Assembly: GCA_028710885.1 (NCBI GenBank)
Contig: JAQTTG010000001.1
Location: forward strand, 186,001 to 250,000
Direction of reading: 5' to 3'
DNA: 64,000 nucleotides
DNA from: Sulfuricurvum sp.
Lineage (GTDB): Bacteria > Campylobacterota > Campylobacteria > Campylobacterales > Sulfurimonadaceae
This document shows positions 39,130-62,708 of the stretch, one piece after another (position 1 is the first letter of the stretch; the number at the start of each line of letters is the position of its first letter). The notes under the pieces were generated by a model. The model worked only from the letters and a program-made list of their open reading frames with translations, made no database searches and had not been told where the DNA came from. Position numbers and translations under genes: made by a program.

Positions 39130-39917
39130 ATCTTTTTACCATTTTCGGTGATCCCGTGAGCCATTCGCGCTCCCCACTCATGCACAATAGTGTTTTCAAA
39201 TCTCTCGAAATCAAAGCTTGCTATAGTCGTACTCACCTTAGTGATGGTTCACAGCTTCGCAACATTTTTTTTGCAAAAGGGCTTAGCGGTGCAAATGTTA
39301 CCGTCCCCCATAAAGAAGCTGCTTATGCGCAATGTGATGAAATACGCGGTATTGCCCAAGAGATAAAAGCGGTTAATACACTTGTCTTGGAAAAAGGGAG
39401 ATTAATCGGTTATAACACCGATGCAGACGGGTTTATGTCTGCTATTCAGTCGTTTGGCGAAATCAAAACTGCACTTATTCTGGGTGCGGGTGGAACAGCA
39501 CGTGCCCTCTCCATAGCATTGCGCCACGGCGAAATCACCCCAACAATCTTAAACCGCTCAAAAGGTCGGTTGGATTACTTCTTGCGCGAAGGATTCGAGT
39601 GTTTTGAGTGGGATGATTTTACCGTTAAACCTTATGATCTCATTATCAACACAACCTCTGCAGGTCTCAGTGATAATGAGCTTCCTATTCCACGCTCTTT
39701 ATTGACGGAACTACTAGAACAGGCAAAAGGGGCTATCGATGTTATCTATGGCAAAGAGACTCCTTACCTACGCGAAGTAAAAATTAGTGGTCTCCCTTAT
39801 AAAGATGGTTCAGATATGCTGTTGGCACAAGGTGTATTGGCCTCATATTTATTTTTAGAAGGGAAGTTTCCTCTCACTACGATTGAAGTACCGATGAAAC
39901 ACAGTTTTATACTCTAA
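39126..39917 (+). CDS. aroE: Shikimate dehydrogenase
   Basis: Reduces 3-dehydroshikimate with NADPH. The 263 residues show the substrate motif Gly-Asp-Pro-Val-Ser-His-Ser-Arg-Ser-Pro near the start, Asn-Val-Thr-Val-Pro-His-Lys with the catalytic Lys near residue 62, and the nucleotide loop Gly-Ala-Gly-Gly-Thr-Ala-Arg-Ala. The last residues (Met-Lys-His-Ser-Phe-Ile-Leu) are usual for the group. It overlaps trpE by 4 bases and modE by one base (TAATG), so modE may be co-transcribed with aromatic amino acid genes. Confidence 0.94.
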   Translation: MNLFTIFGDPVSHSRSPLMHNSVFKSLEIKACYSRTHLSDGSQLRNIFFAKGLSGANVTVPHKEAAYAQCDEIRGIAQEIKAVNTLVLEKGRLIGYNTDADGFMSAIQSFGEIKTALILGAGGTARALSIALRHGEITPTILNRSKGRLDYFLREGFECFEWDDFTVKPYDLIINTTSAGLSDNELPIPRSLLTELLEQAKGAIDVIYGKETPYLREVKISGLPYKDGSDMLLAQGVLASYLFLEGKFPLTTIEVPMKHSFIL

Positions 39918-40693
39918 TGAAAATCGATGGACGTTTCTGGCTCACGAAAGAAGGTCAAAGCTTTTTAGGTGCGGGGCGAATCGAACTTCTGGAAAGAATC
40001 GATCAAACTGGTTCTATCAACGCTGCCGCCAAAGAGATGAAAATGAGCTATAAAGCGGCATGGGAACGGATCAATGGGATGAATACCCTCGCCGATCATC
40101 CTCTCATAGATCGTACAACCGGAGGAAAAGGGGGCGGAGGGACAAAACTCACCCCGTATGCGCATGAGTTGATTGCGACATTTCATCGCTTCAACGAATT
40201 GCACCGCCAGTTTATAGACCGTTTTGCCGAAGCGGGAGACGATCCGGAACGACTTGCCCGCATCCTCAGCCGTACGTTCCTCACCACCAGTGCGCGCAAT
40301 CAGCTCCCCGCCACCCTCCTCTCTATCGAAGAGCGCGGGCTTAACGGTGTTCTCACCCTTTCATTAACAGGAAGCCATACGATCCAATCGGTCATTACAC
40401 TCAAATCGATCCGCAATATGGGTCTCACTATCGGATGTGATCTCTACGCCATCATCAAATCCAGCGACGTCACAATTGTCACCGCTCCCCCGAAAACCAA
40501 TGAGCCCATAAATTGTCTCAAAGGGTCAATCAGTCGCATCGAATCGCAGGATGAAACGGACGAGATCACCTTTGCACTCGATCTCTTTACCGAGCTTATC
40601 GCATTGATGAATCCAAAAGATACTAAAAAGCTCTCCGAGGGGATGAACGCCTATGCCCTTATCTCTCCGAGTCATATTATTATCGGGTTGTAA
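39917..40693 (+). CDS. modE: Molybdate-responsive regulator ModE
   Basis: A 258-residue transcription factor. The N-terminal winged helix is of the LysR/ModE type (Gly-Ser-Ile-Asn-Ala-Ala-Ala-Lys-Glu-Met-Lys-Met-Ser-Tyr-Lys-Ala-Ala-Trp). A Thr-Gly-Gly-Lys-Gly-Gly-Gly-Gly linker and two Mop/TOBE repeats (about 120-185 and 190-258) follow; these bind molybdate or tungstate in the dimer. Holo-ModE usually represses molybdate transport genes and can activate molybdoenzyme genes. Five motifs resembling its half-site occur in the next 10 kb. GC is visibly higher than in the flanking genes. Confidence 0.93.
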   Translation: MKIDGRFWLTKEGQSFLGAGRIELLERIDQTGSINAAAKEMKMSYKAAWERINGMNTLADHPLIDRTTGGKGGGGTKLTPYAHELIATFHRFNELHRQFIDRFAEAGDDPERLARILSRTFLTTSARNQLPATLLSIEERGLNGVLTLSLTGSHTIQSVITLKSIRNMGLTIGCDLYAIIKSSDVTIVTAPPKTNEPINCLKGSISRIESQDETDEITFALDLFTELIALMNPKDTKKLSEGMNAYALISPSHIIIGL

Positions 40694-40771
40694 GTTTTAG
40701 AGCCTCTTCTCATTTGTTTTTATTTCAAACACATTTTTATCAACTCCCTACAAACTTTAAGCCTTTTTCTC

Positions 40772-40807
40772 TATAATTTCGTTATATCTTACAAAGCATA
40801 ACGAAAT
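40772..40807. promoter_or_regulatory. Candidate ModE operator 1 overlapping a -10 element
   Basis: ATTTCGTTAT (40776-40785) and ATAACGAAAT (40798-40807) form a perfect 10-base inverted repeat with a 12-base spacer, the same CGTTAT-N12-ATAACG geometry I recall for the E. coli modA operator. A TATAAT (40772-40777) overlaps the left arm, an arrangement suited to repression of modA. Confidence 0.8.
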
Positions 40808-40850
40808 TGTCGCTCTTTTTGAGAACTCTTTTTGCATTATCGTATTTGTA

Positions 40851-40869
40851 ATTTCGTTATATCATAAAT
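40851..40869 (+). promoter_or_regulatory. Candidate ModE half-site 2 before modA
   Basis: ATTTCGTTATATCATAAAT repeats the left half of operator 1 and its flank, 18 bases before the modA start. The right arm is degenerate. Confidence 0.6.
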
Positions 40870-40886
40870 GAGATCAAGGAGTTTTC

Positions 40887-41642
40887 ATGAAACTGTTAAG
40901 ACTAATACTGGCATCCCTCGCATTTGCTTCTGCACTTGCTGCTCAAACAATCACCGTAGCTGCTGCTGCAAATATGAAATACGCGGTAAACGATATAGCC
41001 AAAGCTTTTAGTGATGAGAGCGGTATCGAAGTAAAAATCATTACCGGAGCTTCAGGTAAGTTAACTCAGCAAATTATGAGCGGTGCACCGTATGATGCAT
41101 TTTTGTCAGCTGATGTAGAGTTTCCAGCGAAACTAGTCCAAGGTGGTTTTACTACGACTCCAGCCCAAGTATATGCCTATGGAACACTTGTTCTTTGGAG
41201 TGATACAGGAGCTGACCTTTCAAAAGGTGTTGCGGTTGTAAACGATCCAAATGTCAAAAAAATCGCCGTTGCCAATCCTAAAACAGCACCTTATGGTACA
41301 GAAGCAATGAATACAATGCGCTATTACAAAGTAGCCGATGAAGCGGCTTCAAAAATTGTTACGGCTGAATCCATATCCCAAGTTGGTAGCTATGTAACTA
41401 CAAAAGTCGTTGATGTTGGATTTATGGCTAAATCAATTGTCCTCTCACCTGAAATGAAAAATGTCGGAAAATGGGTAGAAGTCGATCCTAAATCGTATAA
41501 CACGATTGATCAGGCGATGGTAGGTCTCAAAAATGGCTCACCTGAAAATCAAATTGCAGCCAAAAAATTTCTCCGATTCATGTCATCTCCAAAAACACTA
41601 GAAATTTTAAAAGCTAGTGGTTATGGCTTGCCAAAAAAATAA
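40887..41642 (+). CDS. modA: Molybdate ABC transporter substrate-binding protein ModA
   Basis: A 251-residue periplasmic protein that should bind molybdate or tungstate. The signal peptide ends at Ala-Leu-Ala-Ala (about residue 19). Family motifs are Thr-Val-Ala-Ala-Ala-Ala-Asn-Met, Gly-Ala-Ser-Gly-Lys-Leu (oxyanion-binding Ser), Ala-Phe-Leu-Ser-Ala-Asp and Ala-Pro-Tyr-Gly. Unusually the matching modB and modC are not next to it but 21 kb away at the other end of the island, with a TonB system in between. It is preceded by two ModE-type sites and a GGAG ribosome site. Confidence 0.93.
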   Translation: MKLLRLILASLAFASALAAQTITVAAAANMKYAVNDIAKAFSDESGIEVKIITGASGKLTQQIMSGAPYDAFLSADVEFPAKLVQGGFTTTPAQVYAYGTLVLWSDTGADLSKGVAVVNDPNVKKIAVANPKTAPYGTEAMNTMRYYKVADEAASKIVTAESISQVGSYVTTKVVDVGFMAKSIVLSPEMKNVGKWVEVDPKSYNTIDQAMVGLKNGSPENQIAAKKFLRFMSSPKTLEILKASGYGLPKK

Positions 41643-41679
41643 ATATGCTACTCCAGCAATGGATAGCATAGCCAAAATT

Positions 41680-41697
41680 ATCGTTATATCAAAATAT
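41680..41697 (+). promoter_or_regulatory. Candidate ModE half-site 3 before the porin gene
   Basis: ATCGTTATATCAAAATAT lies 16 bases before the porin ATG. It shares the TCGTTATATC core with the other four sites; the opposite arm is weak. Confidence 0.55.
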
Positions 41698-41712
41698 ATA
41701 CAAGGATTAATT

Positions 41713-43272
41713 ATGACAAAACTCAGCTTTGCAACAGCACTCATTTTAGGAACGGCTCTTTTCGCATCCGCTGCGGATGATTTAGCCTCAGCATTTAAAG
41801 AGGGGAAACTCGATGGGCGTTTAAGAGCAAATTTTATTTCAACCGATTGGGATACAAATGATTGGGGTACTAAACCTGATGGAGATAGCCGTGGCTTAGC
41901 AGTAGGCGGTAGTCTCATTTATAAAACTACTCCACTTTATGGATTCAGTGCAGGAGCTGGCTTTTATACCACTCAAGACAGTCATCTATGGACAGATACA
42001 ACAAGCGGAACATCAAATGGTTATCCAAAAAGTACAACGGGAACCGATCTATTTGCTCGTGGACCTGGTGCAGCAACCACTTGGGGAGACGGCTATAGTG
42101 TTTTAGCGCAATCATATCTCCAATACGATATCGCAAAATCTAAAATTAAAGGCGGTCGCTTTTTGATGACTAACCCTTGGATCACGCCGAACGATACCAA
42201 AATGATTCCGATTGCGATTGAGGGATTCGACGCCGTTTCAAATGATCTTCCTAATACAACAGTTCAACTTGATTATGCCGATAAGATCAAAGAACGCGGA
42301 ATGACCTATTTTGGAAGTATGGCCGATACAGGAGATACCCCTGATGCAATTAAAAACTATTATCGTACCCATTATACAGCTACAACCAATGCAAGTACTT
42401 CTGTTCCTGCAGCACAATTCCCACTTTATGGCTCTGGAGGAGAAGCTCCAGCAGTCAAAATCATCGGTGTAAAAAATAAATCCATCAATGCTTTGGAAGT
42501 ACAAGGATGGTTCATGAACTGGCCAAATATTGTTAATCAGGGGATGTTAGAGGCAAACTATGCGATCGAAGCAGGCGATGTAATTTTTGGGCTTGGTGCA
42601 CGCTATATGAAACAATACGATAAAGGTGCCGGTGATATCATCACTCCAGGCGATGGTAGTAGCCCGTATAGTAAACTTGGGGTAACCAATACCGCACCTA
42701 CGGGAAGTAAAGCATCGGATGTCAATCTAAAAGGGGATAATGACAACAGTGTTGATACGTATCTTTATGCAGTGCGTACAACCGCAAGCTATGGAGCAGG
42801 TAAATTGATGCTTGCTTATTCACATACCGGTAGTGGTGGAGATATGATCGCACCATGGCGCGGGTTCCCAACCGATGGCTATACTCGCAGTATGACACAA
42901 ACCGACTGGAATGCTAATACCAAAGCGTATAAAGCGCAAATCGATTACGACTTTAATGCACTGATTCAAGGTGTCAGTACAATATTGAGCTATTCATTCT
43001 ATAACCGTGATGAATCAAAAATAGGTTATCAAGGACAAACAGACCGCTACTACAACAATGGTGATACACGTCAATGGAATTTGGATGTCAAATACGATGT
43101 CCCTGCGGTGAAAGGTCTTGAGTTAAAAGTACGTGAGATGTATCAACACAATAGTGTACTTGCAGCAGCTACTACTTATGGTACAGCCGGTACAGCAGCA
43201 ACTAAATCTGAAGGTTTTGGTAACGATACTTCTAACCATGAATTGCGTCTCGAAGCGAATTATCGCTTTTAA
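41713..43272 (+). CDS. Outer-membrane porin (OprD-like, Campylobacterota type)
   Basis: A 519-residue exported barrel protein. The signal peptide (Leu-Gly-Thr-Ala-Leu-Phe-Ala-Ser-Ala) ends near residue 20. The first strand region (Gly-Lys-Leu-Asp-Gly-Arg-Leu-Arg-Ala-Asn) and the alternating aromatic strands end in a C-terminal Phe (Leu-Arg-Leu-Glu-Ala-Asn-Tyr-Arg-Phe), the BAM recognition signal. The layout fits Opr-type porins seen across Campylobacterota. ATG at 41713 has CAAGGA upstream; the earlier ATG at 41617 lies inside modA. The ModE-like site in its leader suggests a pore for molybdate or its complexes, which is inference. Confidence 0.85.
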   Translation: MTKLSFATALILGTALFASAADDLASAFKEGKLDGRLRANFISTDWDTNDWGTKPDGDSRGLAVGGSLIYKTTPLYGFSAGAGFYTTQDSHLWTDTTSGTSNGYPKSTTGTDLFARGPGAATTWGDGYSVLAQSYLQYDIAKSKIKGGRFLMTNPWITPNDTKMIPIAIEGFDAVSNDLPNTTVQLDYADKIKERGMTYFGSMADTGDTPDAIKNYYRTHYTATTNASTSVPAAQFPLYGSGGEAPAVKIIGVKNKSINALEVQGWFMNWPNIVNQGMLEANYAIEAGDVIFGLGARYMKQYDKGAGDIITPGDGSSPYSKLGVTNTAPTGSKASDVNLKGDNDNSVDTYLYAVRTTASYGAGKLMLAYSHTGSGGDMIAPWRGFPTDGYTRSMTQTDWNANTKAYKAQIDYDFNALIQGVSTILSYSFYNRDESKIGYQGQTDRYYNNGDTRQWNLDVKYDVPAVKGLELKVREMYQHNSVLAAATTYGTAGTAATKSEGFGNDTSNHELRLEANYRF

Positions 43273-43274
43273 TC

Positions 43275-43350
43275 GATCTCCCCTTTGGGGGATGAGCAGA
43301 GGCGACAGGACGTTTGTCTGCGGTTATTCAAAATACCTGTCGTCTCCCCT
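43275..43350 (+). ncRNA. Candidate structured RNA leader with alternative hairpins
   Basis: AGGCGACAGG (43300-43309) pairs with CCTGTCGTCT (43336-43345) in nine of ten positions around a 26-base loop. The GGGGGA at 43287-43292 can pair either with the TCCCC just before it (43279-43283) or with the TCCCC after the long stem (43345-43349). These two folds exclude each other, as in attenuators and riboswitches. A third hairpin (43388-43405) lies just before the ribosome site of the globin gene. I could not match it to a known riboswitch class. A terminator for the porin gene is the simple alternative. Confidence 0.45.
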
Positions 43351-43431
43351 GATCGTCCATTTCATTTGAATATTGAAACCCTGAATCTCGCCTCTATCGT
43401 GGCGAAAATAACTAAAATGTAAGGATCAAAT

Positions 43432-43995
43432 ATGACTCTCTTAACTTCCAATGGCAAACCTGTCAGCATGTTCAGCGCATGTGGAACAAAACCGTTCCAG
43501 CCTGCAAGTGCTACACCTCATACAGCCGAAGCCAAAATCGATTTTATCTATCCAGAAGTGCCGTTTCCTTCCATCATTCTCTATCAACAATGGGGAGAAG
43601 AGAATATCCGCCATATGGTGAGATATCATCATGGATTGCTACGTAAAAGTGCAATAGGTGACCTTTTTCCTGCTGATGATACAATGTTTAATTTTGCGAC
43701 AGAAAAGACTGCCGACTTTTTCGTCGAAGCACTCGGCGGCGAGAAAGCTTACACACCTGTGCACGGTCACCCTGCATTGCGGATGCGCCATTTTCATATC
43801 ACGATCGATGAAAAAGGGCGTGAGATTTGGCTTATGATGTACAAAAAAACGATCATTGATTTGAAAATGCCAACGGGATGCATCGAACAGTTTTGGAATT
43901 GGATCGAACCACTATCCATCCGTATGATTAACCGTCGTACTACTGTTGCCGAAATCGAGCGTCATCCTTATACTACCGTTTGGGGTAAACTATGA
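43432..43995 (+). CDS. Truncated haemoglobin, group 3-like
   Basis: A 187-residue protein whose core (about 40-165) follows the group 3 truncated globin pattern: a Met-Val-Arg-Tyr-His-His helix, Lys-Ser-Ala-Ile-Gly-Asp-Leu-Phe-Pro, a helix with Thr-Ala-Asp-Phe-Phe-Val-Glu-Ala-Leu-Gly-Gly, then His-Gly-His-Pro-Ala-Leu-Arg-Met-Arg-His containing the probable proximal haem His, and a late Trp. An N-terminal extension of 35 residues with one Cys is extra. Globins of this class handle oxygen or NO in Campylobacter. Its overlap (4 bases) with tonB puts it in the metal-uptake operon, where its role is unclear. Confidence 0.78.
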   Translation: MTLLTSNGKPVSMFSACGTKPFQPASATPHTAEAKIDFIYPEVPFPSIILYQQWGEENIRHMVRYHHGLLRKSAIGDLFPADDTMFNFATEKTADFFVEALGGEKAYTPVHGHPALRMRHFHITIDEKGREIWLMMYKKTIIDLKMPTGCIEQFWNWIEPLSIRMINRRTTVAEIERHPYTTVWGKL

Positions 43996-44792
43996 CTTTT
44001 TTAAATCCTATCGTTATATCAGAAAAGATACTATATAACGACTCTTTGTTAAAAACAAAAGCATTAACAGCATCCATGTTTGTACATGGAGCATTATTAG
44101 CCGCTACACTTTTTATTTATTCACAGCATCCTATCACCATACCGGAAGAAAAACCTGTACTGATCTCATTAGCCGATTATGCTCCCTCATCAAGTAATGA
44201 ATCAATTAATCTCGCAAAGCACGATCCCATCCGTAAAAGTACCCCTATTACACATAAAGATACTCCTACCCCTATCAAAACAAAAACAACACCTCAGGAG
44301 ATACCATCCCACACTCCGATGGTATCTCCTGAGGCGTTGCCTCAACCATTTCCCGTGCATCCCAGTGTTGCTCCATCTGATCAAAAACCCATAACCACTG
44401 ATTTGCTTCATTCAAATCAAAAAACTATTGCTGATGATTCTCCTCATGACGCACATCCTGCACAGCAAGCAAACGATCTACAAAAACCGAACGTTTCCTC
44501 GGATGAGGTCAATGGGGCAACACTGGGACGCATACGGATAATGATTGAAAATGCCCTAACCTATCCATCAATTGCACGTAAACTTCGACTAGAAGGGACT
44601 GTAGTTGTCACATTTATGTTAAAACCTGATGGTTTTGTAGAAAAGGTAGAAATTCTCTCAACCAGCGGAAGTTCATTACTCGATACGAAGGCACGCCAGA
44701 CCGTTATCGATCTAAGCGGTGAATTTCCAACATTGCCTAAAACGGTATTTTTAAAAATACCGATTGCATTTTCATTGAAAAATGTTTCTTAA
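43992..44792 (+). CDS. tonB: TonB energy-transducing protein
   Basis: A 266-residue protein with a cytoplasmic tail, one membrane helix (about 26-44, with the His typical of the TonB anchor), a long Pro/Thr/Ser/His linker and a C-terminal TonB domain (about 180-266; Ile-Glu-Asn-Ala-Leu-Thr-Tyr-Pro-Ser-Ile-Ala-Arg-Lys-Leu, then Gly-Thr-Val-Val-Val). It would pass proton-motive energy from ExbB/ExbD to receptors. No exbB or exbD is in the window, so it must borrow them. It sits beside three TonB-dependent receptors and is likely dedicated to them. Its first codons contain a ModE-like site and its linker contains a perfect 17-base inverted repeat. Confidence 0.88.
   Translation: MTFLNPIVISEKILYNDSLLKTKALTASMFVHGALLAATLFIYSQHPITIPEEKPVLISLADYAPSSSNESINLAKHDPIRKSTPITHKDTPTPIKTKTTPQEIPSHTPMVSPEALPQPFPVHPSVAPSDQKPITTDLLHSNQKTIADDSPHDAHPAQQANDLQKPNVSSDEVNGATLGRIRIMIENALTYPSIARKLRLEGTVVVTFMLKPDGFVEKVEILSTSGSSLLDTKARQTVIDLSGEFPTLPKTVFLKIPIAFSLKNVS
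44010..44042. promoter_or_regulatory. Candidate ModE operator 4 inside the start of tonB
   Basis: TCGTTATAT (44011-44019) and ATATAACGA (44033-44041) form a perfect 9-base inverted repeat with a 13-base spacer. The site is coding sequence, about 20 bases after the tonB ATG, so it could control an internal promoter for the receptor and transporter genes. The spacing differs from operator 1. Confidence 0.6.
44292..44334. repeat. Perfect 17-base inverted repeat inside tonB
   Basis: CCTCAGGAGATACCATC (44292-44308) and its exact reverse complement (44318-44334) flank a 9-base spacer. It encodes part of the Pro/Ser/Thr linker, so the protein still reads normally. The transcript would form a very stable hairpin in the coding region. 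Confidence 0.9.
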
Positions 44793-44820
44793 CACCTAAC
44801 CTAAGCCCTAAGGAATCACC

Positions 44821-45843
44821 ATGAATACCCTCTTACGTATGATTATAATATTAATCATTTCTTTGACGCTCCATGCTAAATCTCTCATTGATATGAATAA
44901 TCAACCCATCACGATCTCTGATCATATTGATCGTGTTTTCGGTTCCTCTCCTCCAATGAACTATCTCATTTATGCGCTCAATCCTGACAAAATGATCGGG
45001 CTCAATTTTGCAGCTAAAAACAGCAATAATCATGCAGATGAAACGCTATTAAGTAAAAAGTTCCTCTCTCTACCTGTGATCGGCTCATTTCACGGTGGTG
45101 GGCAGAGCATCAATTTAGAAACCCTCATGCTTTATGATCCACAACTCATACTCGTATGGCAAGATGATATGCTGGTACAAACCGTAAAGCACTCCATTGA
45201 AAAAACCAAAATTCCCGCAATCCAAATTCCATTTCGTGAAGTCAATGATATGCCCAAAGCATTTCGAATGGTCGGCGAAGCTATCGGTGAAACTAAACGA
45301 GCTAATATCCTCGCAAACTATTCGGAAAAAATAATTACAGAAGTACATAATAGTATTGCTAAAACAAAACCAACCCGATACTACTATGCAGAAGGAACAG
45401 ATGGTCTTTCAACCGAATGTGATACATCGTTTCATATTGAAGCACTCAATTTTGCAGGCGGTGAGAATGTCCATAAATGTCAACAAAGCGGTCTATTAGG
45501 GCTAGAAAAAATCAGTTTTGAAACCCTTCTTACCTATAACCCTGAAGTCATAATTGTTCAAAATCAGGCTGTTTATACCGACCTCATCAACGATCCACTC
45601 TGGAAAAATCTTCGTGCGCTCAAAAGCGGACGTATCTATCTCGTACCTATTCAACCATTTAACTGGATTGACCGACCTCCATCATTTATGAGAGTTATCG
45701 GGATTCAATGGCTGGCGCATCTCTTTCATCCTAAAGAGTACAAAGCCAATCTAACACAACGAACGAAAGAATTTTATGAACTTTTTTTCGGTGTCAAACT
45801 CAGTGACCAGCAAGCTGCAAATTTATTAGGAGCAAAACAATGA
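44821..45843 (+). CDS. Periplasmic binding protein, class III (BtuF/MolA-like)
   Basis: A 340-residue exported protein with a signal peptide (cleavage about residue 19) and the two-lobe, rigid-helix layout of TroA/BtuF/FepB proteins. It should feed the FecCD-type permease encoded 2.3 kb downstream. Conserved with its paralogue at 52.1 kb are Tyr-Tyr-Ala-Glu-Gly-x-Asp-Gly-Leu-Ser-Thr-Glu-Cys-Asp, a second Cys about 25 residues later after Val-His, and Pro-Phe-Asn-Trp-x-Asp-Arg-Pro-Pro-Ser-Phe-Met-Arg. The two Cys could form a disulfide. In Haemophilus, MolA of this class binds molybdate and tungstate. The ligand here is inferred from context. It overlaps the receptor gene by 4 bases. Confidence 0.85.
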   Translation: MNTLLRMIIILIISLTLHAKSLIDMNNQPITISDHIDRVFGSSPPMNYLIYALNPDKMIGLNFAAKNSNNHADETLLSKKFLSLPVIGSFHGGGQSINLETLMLYDPQLILVWQDDMLVQTVKHSIEKTKIPAIQIPFREVNDMPKAFRMVGEAIGETKRANILANYSEKIITEVHNSIAKTKPTRYYYAEGTDGLSTECDTSFHIEALNFAGGENVHKCQQSGLLGLEKISFETLLTYNPEVIIVQNQAVYTDLINDPLWKNLRALKSGRIYLVPIQPFNWIDRPPSFMRVIGIQWLAHLFHPKEYKANLTQRTKEFYELFFGVKLSDQQAANLLGAKQ

Positions 45844-48086
45844 AACTTTCCCCTCTCATGATCTCGATTACTGTATGTTCAATACTCGCTGCCAACCCGA
45901 TTAGCGTTGAGAGAATCGTCGTCACCGATACCCAAAGTGATAACGATCAGCTTATTGCCGATACGAATCTCTCAAAACCTGGAAATTTTCAGACTTTTAC
46001 CACTAAAAGTATTGCGACTTTAGGAACCCAAGCAAATATGAATCCCTACAGTGTCATCCAGTTCTCACCGTCGGTCAATTTTACCCCTGTCGATCCCGCT
46101 GGCTCAAATGAACCTTCTTATCACGATCCGATTCGCATACGTGGAAAATCGCAAACCGGACCGGGTGGAGTATATCTCATCGATGGAATGCCTCTCTCGA
46201 GTAACCCCGGTGGCGGAAAACAAATGATCGATATGGACAATATAGCCGCAATCAATCTCTTCAAAGGGTATTTACCTGTCGATAAAAATATCGGCTTTTC
46301 CAGTTTGATCGGTAAAGTAGATATGGATATTTTACGTCCAAGTAATAAAATGGGGACAAATGTATCCCAATCATTCGGAAAAGATGATTTTAGCCGTACT
46401 TTTGTCCGTTTAGATACGGGTAAACTTGGTGATGTAAGTGCATTTGGATCATTCTCACAAATGTCCGGAGATAAAACAAAAGGTGCAGGAAATCTCAAAC
46501 GTACCAATGCAATGCTTGGGCTTAAATACATACCAAATGATGCAGTCAAAGCCGAAATATTTGCCATTAAAAACTCTGATGATCACCATAACTATTATAA
46601 TCTCTCGTATGCTGAGTCAACCGATTTAGGTCAAAATTTTGGTAAAGATTATGCTGCATTACACCCTAGCAGTGCCAATGATGTCAATTTTTACGATTGG
46701 AACAAACAAAACTTCGATACGACGGCTGTTTTTGCTAATTTTGAATACAAACCCACATCCAAAGACACCCTAAGTCTTAAACCATACTACAAAAAAGACA
46801 GCGGAGATTACTGGTATTCGAGTGTCAATGCCGATCCAACCAAAAACCGTGTCATAAACTGGCATATGGACCATGATCTCTTTGGAGGAATCGCGGCATA
46901 TTCTCATGATTTTTCTGATGCGCTCAATACTAAAATCGGTTATTGGTTTCACAAACAGCTTCCTCCAGGACCTCCATCTGAACAAACAAAATACAAAGTG
47001 GATGCAAGCGGTAATTTGGTATATGACGGATATGCCATTTTGGCAGATAATGGCTACCATACTTTATCATCTCCATTTATTGAACTAAGCGGGACAATAG
47101 ATCGATTTAATTACCTCATAGGTGCACGTTATCAAACATTTAAACTCGGTTCATTGCACAGCTATACAAACGGTACAAGCAATCTAACCAGTCCAAATTA
47201 CGACACAGCAATCGCCAATGGTACTCTCGATACATGGTCGAGTGTCGATGAAAAAACCTTTCATACCTTTATCCCTTCTCTTTATCTTGGGTATACGCTC
47301 GCTTCAAATACGTCGATTTATCTGGATTATTCCAGAACATACGGTATCGATGTCAACCTCTTTCCGTCTTATGTCCAAAACCGTGCCAACTTCGTAGCTA
47401 AAGGGGTTACACTCCAACAGCTATGGGATAAGATGGGACTTGAAACCTCTGATAATATCGATCTTGGACTCAAAACGACCATCGGTTCCATAACGTTCAA
47501 TCCAAATGCCTATGTATCGTTTGTCAAAAATAAACAGGCAAACGTTTATGATTCCCAATATGCCGTTTCCTACCCAGCCAATGTCGGAGATGCACTCGGA
47601 TACGGTGCCGAAATTTCTGCTTATGGACCAATCAGTGAACAACTCGAATTCCTTTTGGGACTTTCATATAACAAGTATACTTTTACCCAAAACTTCAGCA
47701 GCAGTGCAACCGCTACAATCAATACCGATGGAAATCAACTCCCTGATGCTCCTGTTTATATGGCAAAAGGGGCATTATCTTATCATGTGGGTAACTGGAC
47801 GCTCTCACCGAGTATGCGATACACCTCTAGCCGATATGGGGATGTCCAAAATACACAAAAAGTTGATCCTTACACGATCATCGACTTTGATTTGGCTTAT
47901 CGTATAGCAAGCTTCATGGGATCGCATAATGCCCTATTCCGTCTTACCGCGACCAACTTGACCAATAAAAAATACATTGCAACGATCAATGCGGCTGATA
48001 ACTTTCTGGCCGCTTCTACAACAGCAACTACCTATCAAACTGGCGCCCCTTTCGGTCTGTTTGGTAGCATAAATCTGAAATTTTAA
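45840..48086 (+). CDS. TonB-dependent outer-membrane receptor 1
   Basis: A 748-residue receptor. A signal peptide (about 1-18) is followed by Glu-Arg-Ile-Val-Val-Thr-Asp, a TonB-box-like strand. The plug domain (to about 150) shows Ile-Arg-Ile-Arg-Gly-Lys and Tyr-Leu-Ile-Asp-Gly-Met-Pro. The barrel ends in Gly-Ser-Ile-Asn-Leu-Lys-Phe with the terminal Phe. The plug has an unusual Gly-Pro-Gly-Gly-Val insertion. It lies between a binding protein and the permease, implying that the substrate is larger or scarcer than free molybdate, for example a metal-chelator complex. Iron siderophores or cobalamin are alternative substrates. Confidence 0.88.
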   Translation: MKLSPLMISITVCSILAANPISVERIVVTDTQSDNDQLIADTNLSKPGNFQTFTTKSIATLGTQANMNPYSVIQFSPSVNFTPVDPAGSNEPSYHDPIRIRGKSQTGPGGVYLIDGMPLSSNPGGGKQMIDMDNIAAINLFKGYLPVDKNIGFSSLIGKVDMDILRPSNKMGTNVSQSFGKDDFSRTFVRLDTGKLGDVSAFGSFSQMSGDKTKGAGNLKRTNAMLGLKYIPNDAVKAEIFAIKNSDDHHNYYNLSYAESTDLGQNFGKDYAALHPSSANDVNFYDWNKQNFDTTAVFANFEYKPTSKDTLSLKPYYKKDSGDYWYSSVNADPTKNRVINWHMDHDLFGGIAAYSHDFSDALNTKIGYWFHKQLPPGPPSEQTKYKVDASGNLVYDGYAILADNGYHTLSSPFIELSGTIDRFNYLIGARYQTFKLGSLHSYTNGTSNLTSPNYDTAIANGTLDTWSSVDEKTFHTFIPSLYLGYTLASNTSIYLDYSRTYGIDVNLFPSYVQNRANFVAKGVTLQQLWDKMGLETSDNIDLGLKTTIGSITFNPNAYVSFVKNKQANVYDSQYAVSYPANVGDALGYGAEISAYGPISEQLEFLLGLSYNKYTFTQNFSSSATATINTDGNQLPDAPVYMAKGALSYHVGNWTLSPSMRYTSSRYGDVQNTQKVDPYTIIDFDLAYRIASFMGSHNALFRLTATNLTNKKYIATINAADNFLAASTTATTYQTGAPFGLFGSINLKF

Positions 48087-48094
48087 GGGCAATG

Positions 48095-49114
48095 ATGAAA
48101 AGGATAAAACCGCTAGGATGGATAATCGGTGCGACGATGCTGTTAATCGTTATCGCAACGTTATCTCTATTATGGGGGCAATATCCGATCACACTGGAAA
48201 CGCTGATCGGATATCTCCAATTTAAGGTTCTCGGAGGTGTAGGTAACGATACCTATACCCTGCTCGATAACATCATTTTACAAATTCGACTTCCACGCGT
48301 AATGCTAGCGATCTTGATCGGAGCTTCTCTCGCTACGTCAGGGGCTGCATTTCAAGCAATGTTCGTCAACCCTCTCGTCTCACCTGGGATTTTGGGAGTA
48401 CTCGCAGGTGCATCGTTCGGAGCGGCACTGGGAATGCTCATCAGCGATCATTGGTTTGTCGTGCAAGCACTCGCTTTTACATTCGGCTTTGTCGCCGTCG
48501 GTGTTGCGGTACTTATCGGAACGATGGTGACCAACTCACGCTCCACAGTGATGCTCGTCCTCGGCGGCGTTATCAGCAGTGCGCTCTTTACCTCGATCCT
48601 CTCGATCATCAAATACCTCGCCGATCCCTACAGTACACTCCCTGCCATCGTCTACTGGCTGATGGGAAGTTTGACTATGGCGGATCTATCTGGAGTTATC
48701 CTTATCTCCGTACCGATGCTTCTGAGCATAGCGGGGATGATAATGCTGGGTAAATACTTCGACATCCTCTCTCTCGGAGACGAAGAGGCAAAAGCACTCG
48801 GTGTGAATGTTCCGCTGGTACGCTTCGGAGCCATTTTACTCGCTACCCTTGCCAGTTCACTCTCCGTTGTCATGGCAGGGATCATCGGATGGATCGGGCT
48901 CATCATTCCCCATATCATCCGTATGGCAATCGGACCGTCTCATCGTCTGCTCATGCCTCTTTCGGCGATAGTGGGCGGAGCATTTTTACTCCTCGCCGAT
49001 ACGATCTCACGGCTGGCATTCAGTGTCGAAGTCCCTATCGGCATTCTCACGTCGCTCATCGGTATCCCTATCTTTATCATTGTACTTAAAAATGCGAGGG
49101 CAGCATGGAATTAA
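48095..49114 (+). CDS. FecCD/BtuC-type ABC permease (MolB-like)
   Basis: A 339-residue inner-membrane permease with about ten hydrophobic helices. FecCD family motifs include Arg-Leu-Pro-Arg-Val-Met-Leu-Ala, Gly-Ala-Ala-Phe-Gln-Ala-Met-Phe-Val-Asn-Pro-Leu and Gly-Phe-Ile/Gly-Trp-Ile-Gly-Leu-Ile-Ile-Pro-His-Ile-Ile-Arg. It would be the homodimeric channel of a type II importer. In Haemophilus the MolBC-A system of this architecture carries molybdate/tungstate. ATG at 48095 is preferred to 48092 for its spacing from AAGGG (48085-48089). It overlaps the ATPase gene by 10 bases. Confidence 0.92.
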   Translation: MKRIKPLGWIIGATMLLIVIATLSLLWGQYPITLETLIGYLQFKVLGGVGNDTYTLLDNIILQIRLPRVMLAILIGASLATSGAAFQAMFVNPLVSPGILGVLAGASFGAALGMLISDHWFVVQALAFTFGFVAVGVAVLIGTMVTNSRSTVMLVLGGVISSALFTSILSIIKYLADPYSTLPAIVYWLMGSLTMADLSGVILISVPMLLSIAGMIMLGKYFDILSLGDEEAKALGVNVPLVRFGAILLATLASSLSVVMAGIIGWIGLIIPHIIRMAIGPSHRLLMPLSAIVGGAFLLLADTISRLAFSVEVPIGILTSLIGIPIFIIVLKNARAAWN

Positions 49115-49896
49115 CTCCAATAATAACGGTCAATGACCTCCATTTTTCCTATCCAAAACGTCCTGTATTAGAGGGGATAGATTTCACCCTCCAACGCGGT
49201 GAAGTTGTCAGCCTACTAGGGCCTAACGGATGCGGAAAAAGCACCCTGATTCGTCTCATACTCAAACTCATTCATGCTGCGCGCGGCGAGATATGGCTTC
49301 ATAATAAAACTCTTCATCGCTACTCGCACCGTGAGATTGCCTCACATATTGCTTATATTCCGCAGTACCACAATGTACCATTTAACTACAGCGTATTAGA
49401 GATGGTAATTATGGGTCGGATCTCTAAACTTGGGCTGTTTGCCTCTCCCTCGGAAAACGACCGTATTATCGCTATCAAATCATTAGAAAGAGTCGGCATT
49501 TCTGATTTGGCCACGCGACCTTTCGGACAGCTCAGCGGTGGACAAAAACAAATGGTTCTTCTCGCCCGCGCCCTCACACAGGGGGTGGACACTTTTATTA
49601 TGGACGAACCGGTATCGGGTCTGGATTACGGCAATCAAATCCGTCTTTTGGAGTTAATCGTCTCTTTGAGTGCGCAAGGCTACACCTTCCTCAAAACTAC
49701 CCATTACCCGGATCATGCCCTCATGGTTTCCAGCCGTGTTGTGGTGATGAATGATGGAAAAATAATCGCAGACGGCAACCCCTCTGATGTTATTACTGCA
49801 CCTATGATTCGTGAAGTTTACGGTATCAACACTGATCTTATTACCCATAATTCCAATACATGGTGCATACCCACTTTTTCCAAAGGAGCCTTATAA
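49105..49896 (+). CDS. ABC transporter ATPase (FepC/MolC-like)
   Basis: A 263-residue ATP-binding subunit. Walker A is Gly-Pro-Asn-Gly-Cys-Gly-Lys-Ser-Thr (about 39-47), the signature Leu-Ser-Gly-Gly-Gln-Lys-Gln, and Walker B Thr-Phe-Ile-Met-Asp-Glu-Pro with a Ser-Gly-Leu-Asp D loop and the switch His in Thr-Thr-His. It pairs with the permease just upstream. The 120-base gap after it holds another ModE-like site before the second receptor gene. Confidence 0.93.
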   Translation: MELTPIITVNDLHFSYPKRPVLEGIDFTLQRGEVVSLLGPNGCGKSTLIRLILKLIHAARGEIWLHNKTLHRYSHREIASHIAYIPQYHNVPFNYSVLEMVIMGRISKLGLFASPSENDRIIAIKSLERVGISDLATRPFGQLSGGQKQMVLLARALTQGVDTFIMDEPVSGLDYGNQIRLLELIVSLSAQGYTFLKTTHYPDHALMVSSRVVVMNDGKIIADGNPSDVITAPMIREVYGINTDLITHNSNTWCIPTFSKGAL

Positions 49897-49953
49897 GAGC
49901 ATTATCAATTCATAAGCTATTTTCCCTAAATATTGAGGTTAATAGCTTTTTCG

Positions 49954-49979
49954 TGTATCGTTATATCATTTTTGATACA
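49954..49979. promoter_or_regulatory. Candidate ModE site 5 before receptor 2
   Basis: TATCGTTATATCA (49956-49968) carries the shared core, and TGTATC (49954-49959) with GATACA (49974-49979) adds a 6-base inverted repeat. Site 4 has the same TATC-N14-GATA spacing. It lies about 40 bases before the receptor ATG. Confidence 0.6.
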
Positions 49980-50018
49980 TTATTTTATGAACGACATTCA
50001 AACTTAAGGAGTAAAACT

Positions 50019-53800: not shown

Positions 53801-54811
53801 ATGAAAATAGGTCTATTTTGCCTTAGTGAACATTATGATGGAAGTGTTCAGGAGAGTATTATGGAACAGCTTCGGCTCGTAGAGCTTGCCGATCAGCTCG
53901 GATTCGATGAAGCATGGTTCGGCGAACACCATTTTAACGGCTTCAGTATTATTCCAGACCCTTGTGCAATGATTGCTTTTGCAGCAGCACGAACTGGGTG
54001 TATTCGACTAGGAACCGCAGGTTTTCTCGCCCCGTTTTACCATCCTGTTCGTCTTGCTGAAAGTATTGCCGTATTAGATAATCTCTCAAATGGACGAATA
54101 AACGCAGGATTTGCCAAGGGTGGCTTTGCCCCTGATACCAAACATTTCACCCGCGACCCTGACAATCTCCGCAATGCTATGTTTGAAACGACTGAAGCGA
54201 TAGATCAACTACTGCACACAAAAGAGACTACATATAAAGGTTCTTTCGTCTCCTTTGAGGATGTAACTCTACACCCAAAATCATTCCAAAAGCGTATCCC
54301 ATTCTTTGTCGCCACATTTTCTAATCCCGATACGATTCGTTTTGCTGCACGTCAGGGATATGGGTTACTGATGTCACAAGGCGCAAGTTTAGCTGAATGC
54401 ATAGAAGCACAAAATATTTATCGCTCAATCGCTAAAGTCGATCCTGAGATTGTCTTAATGCGTGTTTTTTGCGTCGCTGATACAAAGGAAGATGCCTACC
54501 GTATTGCCAGACCTGCAGTCGATCATTTTGTCAAATCAATGCGCGCCGCCTCTGCCCAAACTCCAGCACCAAAATGGGATCGTGATAAATACGATGCCAT
54601 TTTGCACGAACGTGAAACATTCTTTGACGGACAAAAGTTTTTTGACAATGCCATTCTCGGAACACCTGCCGAGTGTATTGATACCATTAAAACCATCCAA
54701 AAGGAGTTACCTAATATCCACCTCGTTTTAAAACCTTCATCCTCTGATTCTGGTGAAAATCGCCTCATGCTCACAGTTTTTAATTCTCAAATTAGACCCC
54801 ATTTAACTTAA
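53801..54811 (+). CDS. Luciferase-like (LLM class) flavin-dependent oxidoreductase
   Basis: A 336-residue TIM-barrel enzyme of the bacterial luciferase superfamily. Typical parts are the N-terminal Gly-Leu-Phe-Cys, Trp-Phe-Gly-Glu-His-His-Phe near residues 41-47, Gly-Thr-Ala-Gly-Phe-Leu-Ala-Pro-Phe-Tyr-His-Pro-Val-Arg-Leu-Ala-Glu, and Gly-Arg-Ile-Asn-Ala-Gly-Phe-Ala-Lys-Gly-Gly. Such enzymes use reduced FMN or F420 to oxidise small organic molecules. In this operon it could tailor or break down a metal chelate. It has an AAGGA site, 10 bases after the methyltransferase gene. Confidence 0.9.
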   Translation: MKIGLFCLSEHYDGSVQESIMEQLRLVELADQLGFDEAWFGEHHFNGFSIIPDPCAMIAFAAARTGCIRLGTAGFLAPFYHPVRLAESIAVLDNLSNGRINAGFAKGGFAPDTKHFTRDPDNLRNAMFETTEAIDQLLHTKETTYKGSFVSFEDVTLHPKSFQKRIPFFVATFSNPDTIRFAARQGYGLLMSQGASLAECIEAQNIYRSIAKVDPEIVLMRVFCVADTKEDAYRIARPAVDHFVKSMRAASAQTPAPKWDRDKYDAILHERETFFDGQKFFDNAILGTPAECIDTIKTIQKELPNIHLVLKPSSSDSGENRLMLTVFNSQIRPHLT

Positions 54812-56890: not shown

Positions 56891-57625
56891 GTGGAGAAAT
56901 TCAAAACCTACATCTGTATCGATGATACGGATGAGATCGGATACCATACCTCTACCGGAGAAATTTGTGAAGAGATTCGTCGACATATCATGGAACGCTA
57001 TGATAGCTCAGCAACTCCGATAACACGGCATCAGCTTTTTTTACATGAGGATATACCCTACACGTCACACAACAGTTCGATGTGTTTTACTACCTCTTTG
57101 AATCCTAAAGAGCGCGATGATGTCACCCGTTTTGTTTTGGATCATGTGGCTGATGTGAGTGCCCCTACTTCCGATCCGGGGGTATGCATTGCTTTTGAAC
57201 ACGAAATTAATGATCTTGATGGATTAATCCAATACGGTTTTGATGCCAAAGTAAAAGTACTAACCAAAAAGAGCGCTTACACCATGGCTGAAAAACAGAA
57301 CCTTTTTTTACGCGAGCTCAAAAATAGCGGTCAGGGTGTGATAGGAGCCGTTGCCGGTATTGCTTTGCGTGCGCAGGGGAATGACGGTCGGATAAAAGGA
57401 AAATTTCGAATCGATACCCCATTAATCGATGCACATTCCCTCCTAAAGAACGACCTTATAGATGAAATTCGACTCAAAAATGGAGAGCTGATTAGCGAAG
57501 ATTCTCTCATCATCACCAAAGATGAGCTAAAAATTGTCTATCTGAATCACAAGTGCGTTTTACTCGTCGAGAGGAAGGGTGATTTTTACCTCCCTCTTGG
57601 CAAAGAAAATCTCACAGAGTACTAA
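56891..57625 (+). CDS. TiaS N-terminal-domain-like DDTD protein of unknown role
   Basis: A 244-residue protein whose start (Ile-Cys-Ile-Asp-Asp-Thr-Asp-Glu-Ile-Gly) and following helix resemble the N-terminal part of archaeal TiaS, which modifies tRNA-Ile2 with agmatine. The rest of TiaS, including its kinase-like and zinc-ribbon parts, is missing; TiaS has about 420 residues. A later Gly-Gln-Gly-Val-Ile-Gly-Ala-Val-Ala-Gly-Ile-Ala-Leu segment could bind a phosphate. No tRNA modification role is implied, since bacteria use TilS. Within the island it may be a metal- or nucleotide-handling enzyme. The start is GTG, ten bases after receptor 3, with no strong ribosome site. Confidence 0.6.
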   Translation: MEKFKTYICIDDTDEIGYHTSTGEICEEIRRHIMERYDSSATPITRHQLFLHEDIPYTSHNSSMCFTTSLNPKERDDVTRFVLDHVADVSAPTSDPGVCIAFEHEINDLDGLIQYGFDAKVKVLTKKSAYTMAEKQNLFLRELKNSGQGVIGAVAGIALRAQGNDGRIKGKFRIDTPLIDAHSLLKNDLIDEIRLKNGELISEDSLIITKDELKIVYLNHKCVLLVERKGDFYLPLGKENLTEY

Positions 57626-59945: not shown

Positions 59946-60009
59946 CGCTTCAATTCTTTGCTCTGGTAATGTCATTTTAGATATAATAAAACATCAAAAA
60001 GGACTATAA

Positions 60010-60804
60010 ATGTTTCTTGAATCCATCGATTTTGCATCCATGTACCGTGAGCACAAAGCCACTACCGATTTCAAAGGTAAAACCAGCAGTGACTGGGATG
60101 AAAAATCATCCGATATGGCGGCATCCGTCATTAACAGCCCGTATGTTAACGACTTCATCTCCCGTATGAATATCACGGGAGACGAAGTGGTTCTCGACAT
60201 CGGATGCGGACCCGGAACCCTCGCTATCCCATTGGCGAAAAAGGTCAAAGAGGTAATCGCAATCGATTTTTCCGAGGGGATGCTCGAAGAACTGAAAGCC
60301 TATGCCGCGCGCGAAGGGATTACTAATATTAAAACATATCATATCGGTTGGGACGATGATTGGAGCCACTTATCCGATGTTGATATCGTCGTTGCTTCCC
60401 GATCTATGGAAGTTTCCGACATCGATGCAGCTTTAGCAAAAATGTCCGCTCATGCCCGTAAGTCATGCTACCTCACCTACAAAGTAGGAGGAAGTTTCGT
60501 CGATATGAATATCCTAGACTACATCGGTAAAAAGGTAAAAACAAAACCAGACTACTGGTATATCCCAATCATCCTCTACTCTCAGGGCTTCCTCCCCCGC
60601 ATTGACTACATCGAAACAGGTCGTGGAAGTGTCCGTGCCGGAAACGAAGAGGAGTTTGTAGAATCGCTACTATGGAGCGTACATGAACTCAATGAGGAAC
60701 AAAAGACGAAAGCACGACAATACTACCGTGAAGTGATTATAGGGCAAAACCGCCCTCCCCGTGCTGTCAACTGGGCATTTATCGGATGGGAGACGACTAA
60801 ATGA
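60010..60804 (+). CDS. Class I SAM-dependent methyltransferase, ModD-linked
   Basis: A 264-residue enzyme with the SAM loop Leu-Asp-Ile-Gly-Cys-Gly-Pro-Gly-Thr-Leu near residues 62-71, then Ala-Ile-Asp-Phe-Ser-Glu-Gly-Met. It is longer than the 53.2-kb methyltransferase and has an N-terminal helical cap (about 1-50). It overlaps modD by 4 bases, and TATAAT-like sequence (59981-59988) precedes it, so it starts the final modD-mop-modB-modC operon. The substrate is unknown; methylation of a ligand made or handled by ModD is a reasonable hypothesis. Confidence 0.87.
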   Translation: MFLESIDFASMYREHKATTDFKGKTSSDWDEKSSDMAASVINSPYVNDFISRMNITGDEVVLDIGCGPGTLAIPLAKKVKEVIAIDFSEGMLEELKAYAAREGITNIKTYHIGWDDDWSHLSDVDIVVASRSMEVSDIDAALAKMSAHARKSCYLTYKVGGSFVDMNILDYIGKKVKTKPDYWYIPIILYSQGFLPRIDYIETGRGSVRAGNEEEFVESLLWSVHELNEEQKTKARQYYREVIIGQNRPPRAVNWAFIGWETTK

Positions 60805-61649
60805 TAATCTTGAACGATCATGAGCTAGAAACCCTCCTCGCCGAAGATGTCCCCTACGGGGATCTAACAACCGCCTCATTGGGAATTAATGACCAACGCG
60901 CCCGTATCACCTTTGCTACACGTGAACGTCCCATGGTTGCTTCATGCACTGAAGAGGCCGTACGTTTATGCGGGCTTTATGGATTAGAAATTGATGGATT
61001 TGTTAAATCAGGAACTTTAGTTCCTCCCAAAAGTGTCTTTCTCGAAGCACATGGAGAAGCAGGCAATATCCATCGTGTTTGGAAGAGCATTCAAAATCTC
61101 CTCGATTATGCGGGAGGAATTGCCACCTATACCCGTGAAGCAGTGCTATTAGCTCGTAGTATCAATCCCGATATCGTTGTCGCAACAACCCGAAAGACTA
61201 CACCGTTTACGAAAAAAATTGCTATAAAAGCGGTCGAATCCGGTGGAGGAGTCGCCCATCGCCTCGGACTCTCCGAAAGTATCTTGATTTTTAATTATCA
61301 TCGTATCTTTTTTCCAAATAACGAAGCGTTTAGCACTGCATTACATAAAACAAAAAAAGCCAATCCAGAAAAAAAAATCATCATTGAGGTTGAAACTCTC
61401 GAAGATGCGCTAAAATTCGCTCAAGCAGGAGCAGATATTCTCCAATTAGAAAAAATGCCACTTACCAAACTTTCCGATGCAATCAGAGAGATACGGAGTG
61501 CCTATCCACATGTCAATCTAATTGCTACGGGCGGGATCAGTACTAAGAATATCGCCGAATATGTCGCAACAGGAGTCGATATGATCGTTACCTCATCACC
61601 CTATAATGCCAATCCAGCTGATATCAAAGTCACTATTGAGCTGTTATGA
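60801..61649 (+). CDS. modD: ModD, quinolinate phosphoribosyltransferase-like protein
   Basis: A 282-residue relative of NadC found in molybdate transport operons. Visible parts are Leu-Leu-Ala-Glu-Asp-Val-Pro-Tyr-Gly-Asp-Leu-Thr-Thr at the start, Ala-Thr-Thr-Arg-Lys-Thr-Thr-Pro and a Lys-Lys segment typical of the phosphoribosyl site, and Glu-Val-Glu-Thr-Leu-Glu-Asp-Ala, Leu-Gln-Leu-Glu-Lys-Met and Ala-Thr-Gly-Gly-Ile of the barrel. Replacement of the standard NadC His-Arg-Lys-Thr-Thr-Pro-Gly-Leu-Arg motif distinguishes it from true NadC. Its reaction is unknown. Because of the fold it may attach or remove a phosphoribosyl group on a small aromatic acid. Confidence 0.87.
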   Translation: MIILNDHELETLLAEDVPYGDLTTASLGINDQRARITFATRERPMVASCTEEAVRLCGLYGLEIDGFVKSGTLVPPKSVFLEAHGEAGNIHRVWKSIQNLLDYAGGIATYTREAVLLARSINPDIVVATTRKTTPFTKKIAIKAVESGGGVAHRLGLSESILIFNYHRIFFPNNEAFSTALHKTKKANPEKKIIIEVETLEDALKFAQAGADILQLEKMPLTKLSDAIREIRSAYPHVNLIATGGISTKNIAEYVATGVDMIVTSSPYNANPADIKVTIELL

Positions 61650-62044
61650 ATATATTAAATGCCACCATCACCGCTATCGAAGCATCTGAACATCTCTCAT
61701 TAATTCAAGTTCGAGTAGAAGATAATTCATTTCACCTTCTACTCGCTGAATCATCAGACCAAAATTTGTTGTATACCGATGTAACACTGGCATTCAAAGA
61801 GACAGAAGTTATCCTATCAAAAACCTTTACTGCCACTACTGCGAACATTCAAAATGGCAAAGTAACTCATATTGAGAGGGGAATTGTACTTTCTCAGATC
61901 ACCCTCGCTTATCATGAAACTGTTATTACCTCACTCGTACCGACACTGACGTTTAATGCACTCTCCATACATGAGGGCGACACGATCTATTGGATGGTAC
62001 AGCCCAGTGAAATTTCCCTGCTTCGGAGTAACCATGGAGTCTGA
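61646..62044 (+). CDS. Di-Mop (TOBE) molybdate-binding protein
   Basis: A 132-residue protein made of two Mop/TOBE repeats (about 1-64 and 68-132), the module seen in ModE, ModC and ModG. The first repeat begins Leu-Asn-Ala-Thr-Ile-Thr-Ala-Ile-Glu; the second resembles it in hydrophobic pattern. As ModG-type proteins bind several oxyanions per hexamer or trimer, it probably stores or buffers molybdate/tungstate in the cytoplasm. It overlaps modD by 4 bases and modB by 11 bases. Similarity to canonical Mop is modest, so the repeat assignment needs a profile search. Confidence 0.65.
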   Translation: MNILNATITAIEASEHLSLIQVRVEDNSFHLLLAESSDQNLLYTDVTLAFKETEVILSKTFTATTANIQNGKVTHIERGIVLSQITLAYHETVITSLVPTLTFNALSIHEGDTIYWMVQPSEISLLRSNHGV

Positions 62045-62708
62045 ATTTTTAGCCACAATGATTTTGACTTTTAAACTCGCTGCAATTACAACGATGATAT
62101 TACTCGTCATTGCAATCCCACTTGCAGCTTTTTTGGTCTTCGGAAAAATGCGATTTAAAAGCATTCTTGAGACCATTGTCTCTATGCCTCTGGTTCTCCC
62201 ACCTTCGGTATTGGGATTTTATCTCCTCGTAGCATTTAGCCCCTCTTCATTTATCGGAAAATTCTTAACTGATCACGGCATTCGTCTAGCATTTAGTTTC
62301 GAAGGGCTTGTTGTGGGATCAGTTATATTTAGCCTCCCTTTTATGGTCCACCCAATTCAATCGGCACTTAGTCAAGTACCTAAATCAATCTTTGAGGCCG
62401 CCTATACCCTCGGTAAATCAAAACTGCAAACCATGATACATGTTATTCTCCCATCAATACGACATGGACTGATATCGGGAATTGTACTCGCCTTTGCCCA
62501 TACAGTCGGAGAGTTTGGAGTAATTCTGATGATCGGCGGAAATATCCCCGGTGAGACACGTGTTGCCTCCATCGCTATCTATGACGAAGTTGAATCACTT
62601 AACTATGCACTGGCACATCAATATGCTTTAACCTTGTTTGCCGTAACCTTTGCCATACTTCTTCTTGTTTATACCCTTAATAAGAAATCGCTGGGGGATA
62701 TTAGATGA
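62034..62708 (+). CDS. modB: Molybdate ABC permease ModB
   Basis: A 224-residue inner-membrane permease with five to six helices. The ATPase-contact loop is clear (Glu-Ala-Ala-Tyr-Thr-Leu-Gly-Lys-Ser-Lys, then Leu-Pro-Ser-Ile), as are Pro-Leu-Val-Leu-Pro-Pro-Ser-Val-Leu-Gly-Phe-Tyr-Leu and Thr-Val-Gly-Glu-Phe-Gly-Val-Ile-Leu-Met-Ile-Gly-Gly-Asn-Ile-Pro-Gly of ModB. ATG at 62034 is used; the longer reading from 61956 lies inside the Mop gene. It should work with ModA encoded 21 kb upstream and ModC just downstream (4-base overlap). Confidence 0.93.
   Translation: MESEFLATMILTFKLAAITTMILLVIAIPLAAFLVFGKMRFKSILETIVSMPLVLPPSVLGFYLLVAFSPSSFIGKFLTDHGIRLAFSFEGLVVGSVIFSLPFMVHPIQSALSQVPKSIFEAAYTLGKSKLQTMIHVILPSIRHGLISGIVLAFAHTVGEFGVILMIGGNIPGETRVASIAIYDEVESLNYALAHQYALTLFAVTFAILLLVYTLNKKSLGDIR

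Follow-up and report, generated by a model that had tools for sequence, protein, structure and literature searches.

A predicted ModE regulon with Escherichia coli-type operators at the molybdate loci of Sulfuricurvum

In E. coli, a molybdate-bound dimer of ModE represses modABC. At a molybdate island of Sulfuricurvum, a short motif recurs five times downstream of a modE gene, which raises the question of whether these copies are operators for the adjacent regulator and, if so, how far its regulon extends. Here, we analyze the window, a 64-kb stretch of DNA corresponding to C13:186001-250000 of genome G000. We find that the five sites, along with a weaker sixth, are very probably operators for the ModE encoded at 39917-40693, because this regulator is encoded next door, the sites have the E. 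coli geometry, the dyad is specific, the sites are conserved in relatives, and they co-occur with modE. The relevant features are these:

39917-40693, + strand: modE, 258 aa, LysR-type winged HTH plus Mop/TOBE domains
40772-40777, + strand: TATAAT, predicted -10 of the modA promoter, with TTTAAG at 40756-40761 (TTAAG-N10-TATAAT)
40780-40803: predicted operator 1, CGTTATATC-ttacaa-AGCATAACG, rank 1, 29.5 bits
40855-40878: predicted operator 2, CGTTATATC-ataaat-GAGATCAAG, 19.8 bits
40887-41642, + strand: modA, molybdate-binding protein (TIGR01256, 164.9 bits, cut-off 62.5)
41682-41705: predicted operator 3, CGTTATATC-aaaata-TATACAAGG, ending 7 nt before the ATG of the OprD-type porin gene, 27.0 bits
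41713-43272, + strand: OprD-family porin (PF03573, E 3e-12)
43432-43995, + strand: truncated-globin family protein (PF01152; PDB 4nk1, E 6e-45)
43992-44792, + strand: tonB (PF03544, TIGR01352)
44012-44035: predicted operator 4, CGTTATATC-agaaaa-GATACTATA, inside tonB at codons 7-15, 20.2 bits
44821-49896, + strand: MolA-like binding protein, TonB-dependent receptor, MolB-like permease and ATPase (PDB HI_1472/HI1471, PF00593/PF07715)
49959-49982: predicted operator 5, CGTTATATC-attttt-GATACATTA, lying 36 nt upstream of the gene for the second TonB-dependent receptor, 19.8 bits
50019-54811, + strand: TonB-dependent receptor, MolA-like binding protein, methyltransferase and luciferase-like oxidoreductase
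59965-59988: predicted operator 6, a weaker site that keeps its right half, GGTAATGTC-attttA-GATATAATA, 13.2 bits, 0.07 expected per 64 kb
60010-63580, + strand: methyltransferase, modD, TOBE protein, modB and modC (TIGR01334, 281.8 bits; TIGR02141, 237.6 bits; modC-like ATPase)

The gene order on the + strand is modE, modA, OprD-type porin, globin, tonB, MolA-like protein, receptor, MolB-like permease and ATPase, followed by receptor, MolA-like protein, methyltransferase, luciferase-like oxidoreductase, another receptor and, farther along, methyltransferase, modD, TOBE protein, modB and modC. Also in the island, 56891-57625 gives a weak match to methanogenesis marker protein 11 (TIGR03280, 37.5 bits against a cut-off of 255.8).

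The regulator consists of an N-terminal winged HTH and two Mop/TOBE domains, the first of which is clear and the second seen only via the alignment to PDB 1o7l. It matches E. coli ModE (PDB 1o7l/1b9m) over its full length (E 9e-30), and the alignment takes in SYKxAW and TGGKGGGG, both in the DNA-binding domain, as well as SARNQ in the first Mop domain. The ModE profile TIGR00637 scores 95.4 bits, just under its cut-off of 98.5; TIGR00638 (Mop), PF00126 and PF03459 match as well. Its closest relatives are encoded in Sulfuricurvum MAGs (90-93%).

The initial annotation placed a core motif at five positions and noticed none elsewhere in the 64 kb. Both claims hold, the stated coordinates being within 1 of ours: an exact search of the window for TWTCGTTATATC gives five hits and no more, all of them + strand (40777, 40852, 41679, 44009 and 49956), and T(A/T)TCGTTATATC finds the same five + strand positions and no further copy. 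The shorter CGTTATATC occurs five times, against 0.78 +/- 1.02 expected in the window, with 0 of 100 shuffles reaching five, and all five copies lie at molybdate-island genes. As a genome-wide marker, the core 10-mer is rejected, its frequency being that of the control (13 copies versus 11); the core 9-mer has 35 copies, versus 28 for its reversed control. Seven of the 10-mer copies are unrelated; they sit within long open reading frames and have no right half, 6-7 of its 9 bases being wrong and 2-3 matching.

The specific element is instead a 24-bp dyad, CGTTAT(A/G)TC-N6-GA(C/T)ATAACG, of which the core is the better-kept left half. In pattern searches of the whole 2.64-Mb genome, the outer dyad CGTTAT-N12-ATAACG occurs exactly three times (site 1, C4:4759 and C13:250997), always at modE or molybdate loci. 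When up to three mismatches to the refined dyad are allowed, seven places are found, six of them at such loci (binomial 6e-11), versus two for a reversed control. Many equally good matches in unrelated places, which had been named as grounds for refutation, are thus seen for the core alone and not for the dyad. In the right halves at the five window sites, 5-6 of 9 positions match, and this agreement peaks only at the right register (28, versus at most 19 at other offsets). A matrix trained solely on relatives' sites ranks the five sites 1-5 in the window (29.5-19.8 bits), followed by the sixth at 13.2 bits and then noise. Hence the count of five copies stands for the core, while at the operator level there are at least six. 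Whereas the outer dyad is exact at site 1 and the two other genomic sites, the right half is weakened at sites 2-5. Here, the intact half is always gene-distal and in the sense orientation, a bias that is not predicted by a symmetric operator alone.

Site 1 indeed forms a perfect 10-bp inverted repeat, with arms ATTTCGTTAT (40776-40785) and ATAACGAAAT (40798-40807) 12 bases apart. It had been described as lying over a TATAAT, yet the repeat overlaps only the last two bases of that hexamer. Nearly all relatives keep this TATAAT ahead of site 1; none is evident at sites 2-5. We considered TTTAAG as a Campylobacter -35 element, TTnAAGTnTT (PMC3824568), and rejected it: the sequence fits, but the spacer is too short (about 6 versus 19 bp). 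Such -35/-10 elements number 3 in the window, versus 1.4 expected. The predicted modA promoter therefore rests on the TATAAT and its conservation. Between operators 1 and 2, at approximately 40822-40837, lies a GAAC-N5-TTGCA-like element (TTTTTGCA), 13 or 18-19 bases from operator 2, which is kept in Sulfuricurvum and also present at C4. A sigma-54 promoter at this element was judged by eye and rejected, as most relatives lack the -24 GG.

Operator 2 ends 8 nt upstream of the modA ATG, touching the Shine-Dalgarno sequence. More generally, operators 2 and 3 and their counterparts in relatives end 7-9 nt before an ATG, in contact with the Shine-Dalgarno sequence, and do so irrespective of the gene that follows. 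Operator 6 sits 21 nt upstream of the ATG at 60010, which opens the methyltransferase-modD-modBC operon, and at L040:13249 a dyad precedes a start reading MFHEPIDFAAMYRA, which resembles the start at 60010. The modD-modBC genes, too, probably belong to the predicted ModE regulon.

Operator 4 qualifies the earlier view that every copy lies before or at the start of a gene: it is inside tonB, beginning 20 nt past the ATG in nearly all orthologues. Codons at this site are fixed, namely GTT for Val7 (14/14), ATA for Ile8 (13/13) and ATA for Ile12 (14/14), even though ATA makes up just 17% of Ile codons. By contrast, the Ser9 codon varies at its wobble base, a position in the dyad spacer, and elsewhere in tonB most conserved residues switch codons. 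The fixation of synonymous codons therefore implies a constraint on the DNA, beyond that on the protein alone. Farther inside the tonB frame, at 44287-44339, is an inverted repeat with 22-nt arms (95%) and a 9-nt loop; different hairpins are seen in four of the seven other tonB regions examined.

The same arrangement is seen well beyond this genome, bearing in mind that relatives are non-independent samples in all conservation counts given here. Across 41 relatives' modE loci (656 kb, both strands), CGTTAT/ATAACG pairs separated by 12 bases number 30; no other spacing between 0 and 30 yields more than 8. In Sulfuricurvum, modE is generally separated from the following gene by tandem dyads spaced 70-77 bp. 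What that gene is differs from case to case (modA or a further modA-like gene, modB, or a gene for a Mop protein or globin), as is expected of a regulon. Relatives carry the same sites before modA, Mop, OprD, globin, MolA-like, modD and modB genes, and four of five receptor orthologues have a counterpart of the site 5 dyad immediately upstream. Within the genus, presence of the dyad depends on that of modE: 28 modE-positive genomes have it and 4 do not, compared to 1 and 8 among those without modE (p=4e-5). Beyond the genus, co-occurrence is not significant (p=0.28 for other genera of the family, 0.06 for other families).

The assignment to ModE in the initial annotation agrees with all computational tests, but its description of the regulon as local is too narrow, since dyads also lie at C13:250997 and C4. 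The exact dyad at C13:250997, 1 kb past the window end, is directly upstream of a paralogue of the window globin (C13:250.4-251.0 kb). This dyad, CGTTATGTC-acaaaa-GACATAACG, is fully symmetric and separates the globin paralogue from a two-domain Mop gene upstream of it; the two genes are on the minus strand (L030:1409-2540, i.e., C13:250408-251539). In at least four other genomes, a dyad directly precedes the counterpart of this globin gene. Relatives of the window globin (E<=1e-40) are found in 18 of 120 genomes, all of which have ModE (p=1e-4, uncorrected for phylogeny), and most lie no more than 13 kb from modE. Globin genes of this kind are preceded by ModE-type dyads in G000, G008, G011, G015, G035, G050, G066 and G095. 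The second locus, on the minus strand of C4 (L029 1-5599), contains a modE paralogue and tandem ModE dyads 71 bp apart (C4:4688/4759), as well as a short degenerate tonB-like frame (4394-4651) and genes for a TonB-dependent receptor, a MolA-like protein and a luciferase-like oxidoreductase. The contig is 12.9 kb long, and the locus resembles a cassette that has been duplicated. At both ModE loci, the luciferase-like (LLM) oxidoreductase gene adjoins those for a MolA-like protein and a TonB-dependent receptor (53801-54811; L029:1-910); this enzyme might act on a metal chelate.

The regulon we infer from these sites would thus comprise modA, the porin gene, tonB with the MolBCA-like importer genes, the TonB-dependent receptor operon, the globin gene outside the window and the second modE/receptor locus. 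Among PDB entries, the permease best matches HI1471, while the MolA-like binding protein best matches 4pag, deposited merely as a periplasmic binding protein, with HI_1472 fourth. The PDB search gave no match for the second TonB-dependent receptor and, for the first, low-scoring hits to siderophore/metallophore receptors only.

This kind of switch is already known. The E. coli K-12 modA operator, taken from the genome (CGTTATATTGTCGCCTACATAACG, 20 bp before the modA ATG), bears out the noted geometry, sharing with the Sulfuricurvum sites the CGTTAT-N12-ATAACG outer dyad, the position just before modA and a regulator homologous over its full length. The E. coli ModE consensus, with which this operator agrees, is given as ATCGNTATATA-[N6]-TATATANCGAT in PMC545781, which also quotes the motif of Studholme and Pau (BMC Microbiol 2003 3:24). 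Unlike in E. coli, inner positions in Sulfuricurvum favor C/G (TATATC-N6-GATATA) rather than A/T, tandem sites precede modA, sites lie over Shine-Dalgarno sequences or inside tonB, and predicted targets include TonB, receptors, a porin and globins. The ModE regulon of Geobacter sulfurreducens is similarly sequence-predicted, with E. coli-type sites near modE (PMC545781, PMC2700814), and one site listed in the former, ATCGTTATgTcaTgAAggtTATAGCGtT, has C at the inner position, as in Sulfuricurvum. In contrast to what we find here, that account, as excerpted from PMC545781 and PMC2700814, names no TonB system or globin. The Haemophilus influenzae molybdate importer MolBCA (HI1470-1472) resembles the one predicted here, with its permease HI1471 closest to ours and HI_1472 matching the binding protein. 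The Sulfuricurvum importer differs in being coupled to tonB and TonB-dependent receptors, and its binding protein is closer to 4pag. What is unexpected is the presence of ModE boxes on tonB/receptor operons and globin genes. In a keyword literature search of limited coverage, and hence as weak evidence, no globin or TonB system was reported in a ModE regulon.

Could these sites be something other than ModE operators? They are always in the sense orientation, keep the left half better at sites 2-5 and stand at fixed distances from start codons of several genes (7-9 nt before the ATG, or 20 nt after it), as might an RNA element acting at translation starts, whether a hairpin (UAUC-N6-GAUA) or a small-RNA target. 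We consider this very unlikely. A hairpin is unsupported because 19 aligned sites contain no covariation, the left arm being nearly constant and the right arm varying uncompensated, and no intergenic copy of the 10-mer exists outside molybdate loci to serve as a complementary small-RNA seed. Moreover, full DNA dyads of E. coli operator geometry are found at site 1 and the globin site, and at site 6 it is the right half that is kept. It is less probable still that the motif is simply part of a -10 region and no regulator's operator. At site 1 the AT-rich motif does lie just downstream of TATAAT, and TATCGT at sites 3-5 is like a poor -10; but the symmetry spans 24 bp, past any -10, the conserved TATAAT is a distinct element farther upstream, dyads are very few genome-wide, and site 4 is within a gene. 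That the sites serve some other regulator that happens to share the locus seems about as improbable. Dyads are present in G026, a fragmented assembly in which modE was not found, whereas identity to the E. coli ModE operator, the presence of modE next door in most relatives, and the absence of the sites together with modE all point to ModE itself.

Under the ModE reading, a ModE-molybdate dimer would bind the 24-bp dyad, positioned as it is at the promoter or start of molybdate genes, and repress molybdenum acquisition when molybdate is plentiful; scarcity would lift repression. Site 1, over the start region of the TATAAT promoter, may act by classical promoter occlusion of modA. Because sites 2 and 3 abut Shine-Dalgarno sequences and site 4 is in tonB, the three probably work as roadblocks or second operators beyond the point where transcription starts, or else on internal promoters. 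Right halves may be weakened where they double as Shine-Dalgarno sequences (sites 2-3) or codons (site 4), which would account for the sense-orientation bias at these sites; site 5 is not covered by this explanation. More tentatively, it is possible, if somewhat doubtful, that in Sulfuricurvum and its relatives ModE rules an energized outer-membrane molybdenum route and a dedicated truncated-globin clade, in part via RBS and intra-tonB operators that block elongation. Such a route would consist of porin, TonB and TonB-dependent receptors feeding the MolBCA-like importer, perhaps for a molybdenum chelate.

Within its limited coverage, our literature search found no description of a ModE regulon for Campylobacterota. 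The sequence comparisons indicate that one is very probably conserved across Sulfuricurvum, with an E. coli-type operator and a larger extent than first noted. This gives a testable ModE regulon and a refined operator for Campylobacterota, and the intragenic site in tonB offers a clean case for roadblock repression. TonB-dependent receptors and this globin clade are usually annotated as iron/heme proteins. Their predicted control by ModE would link them to molybdenum, which may guide functional assignment.
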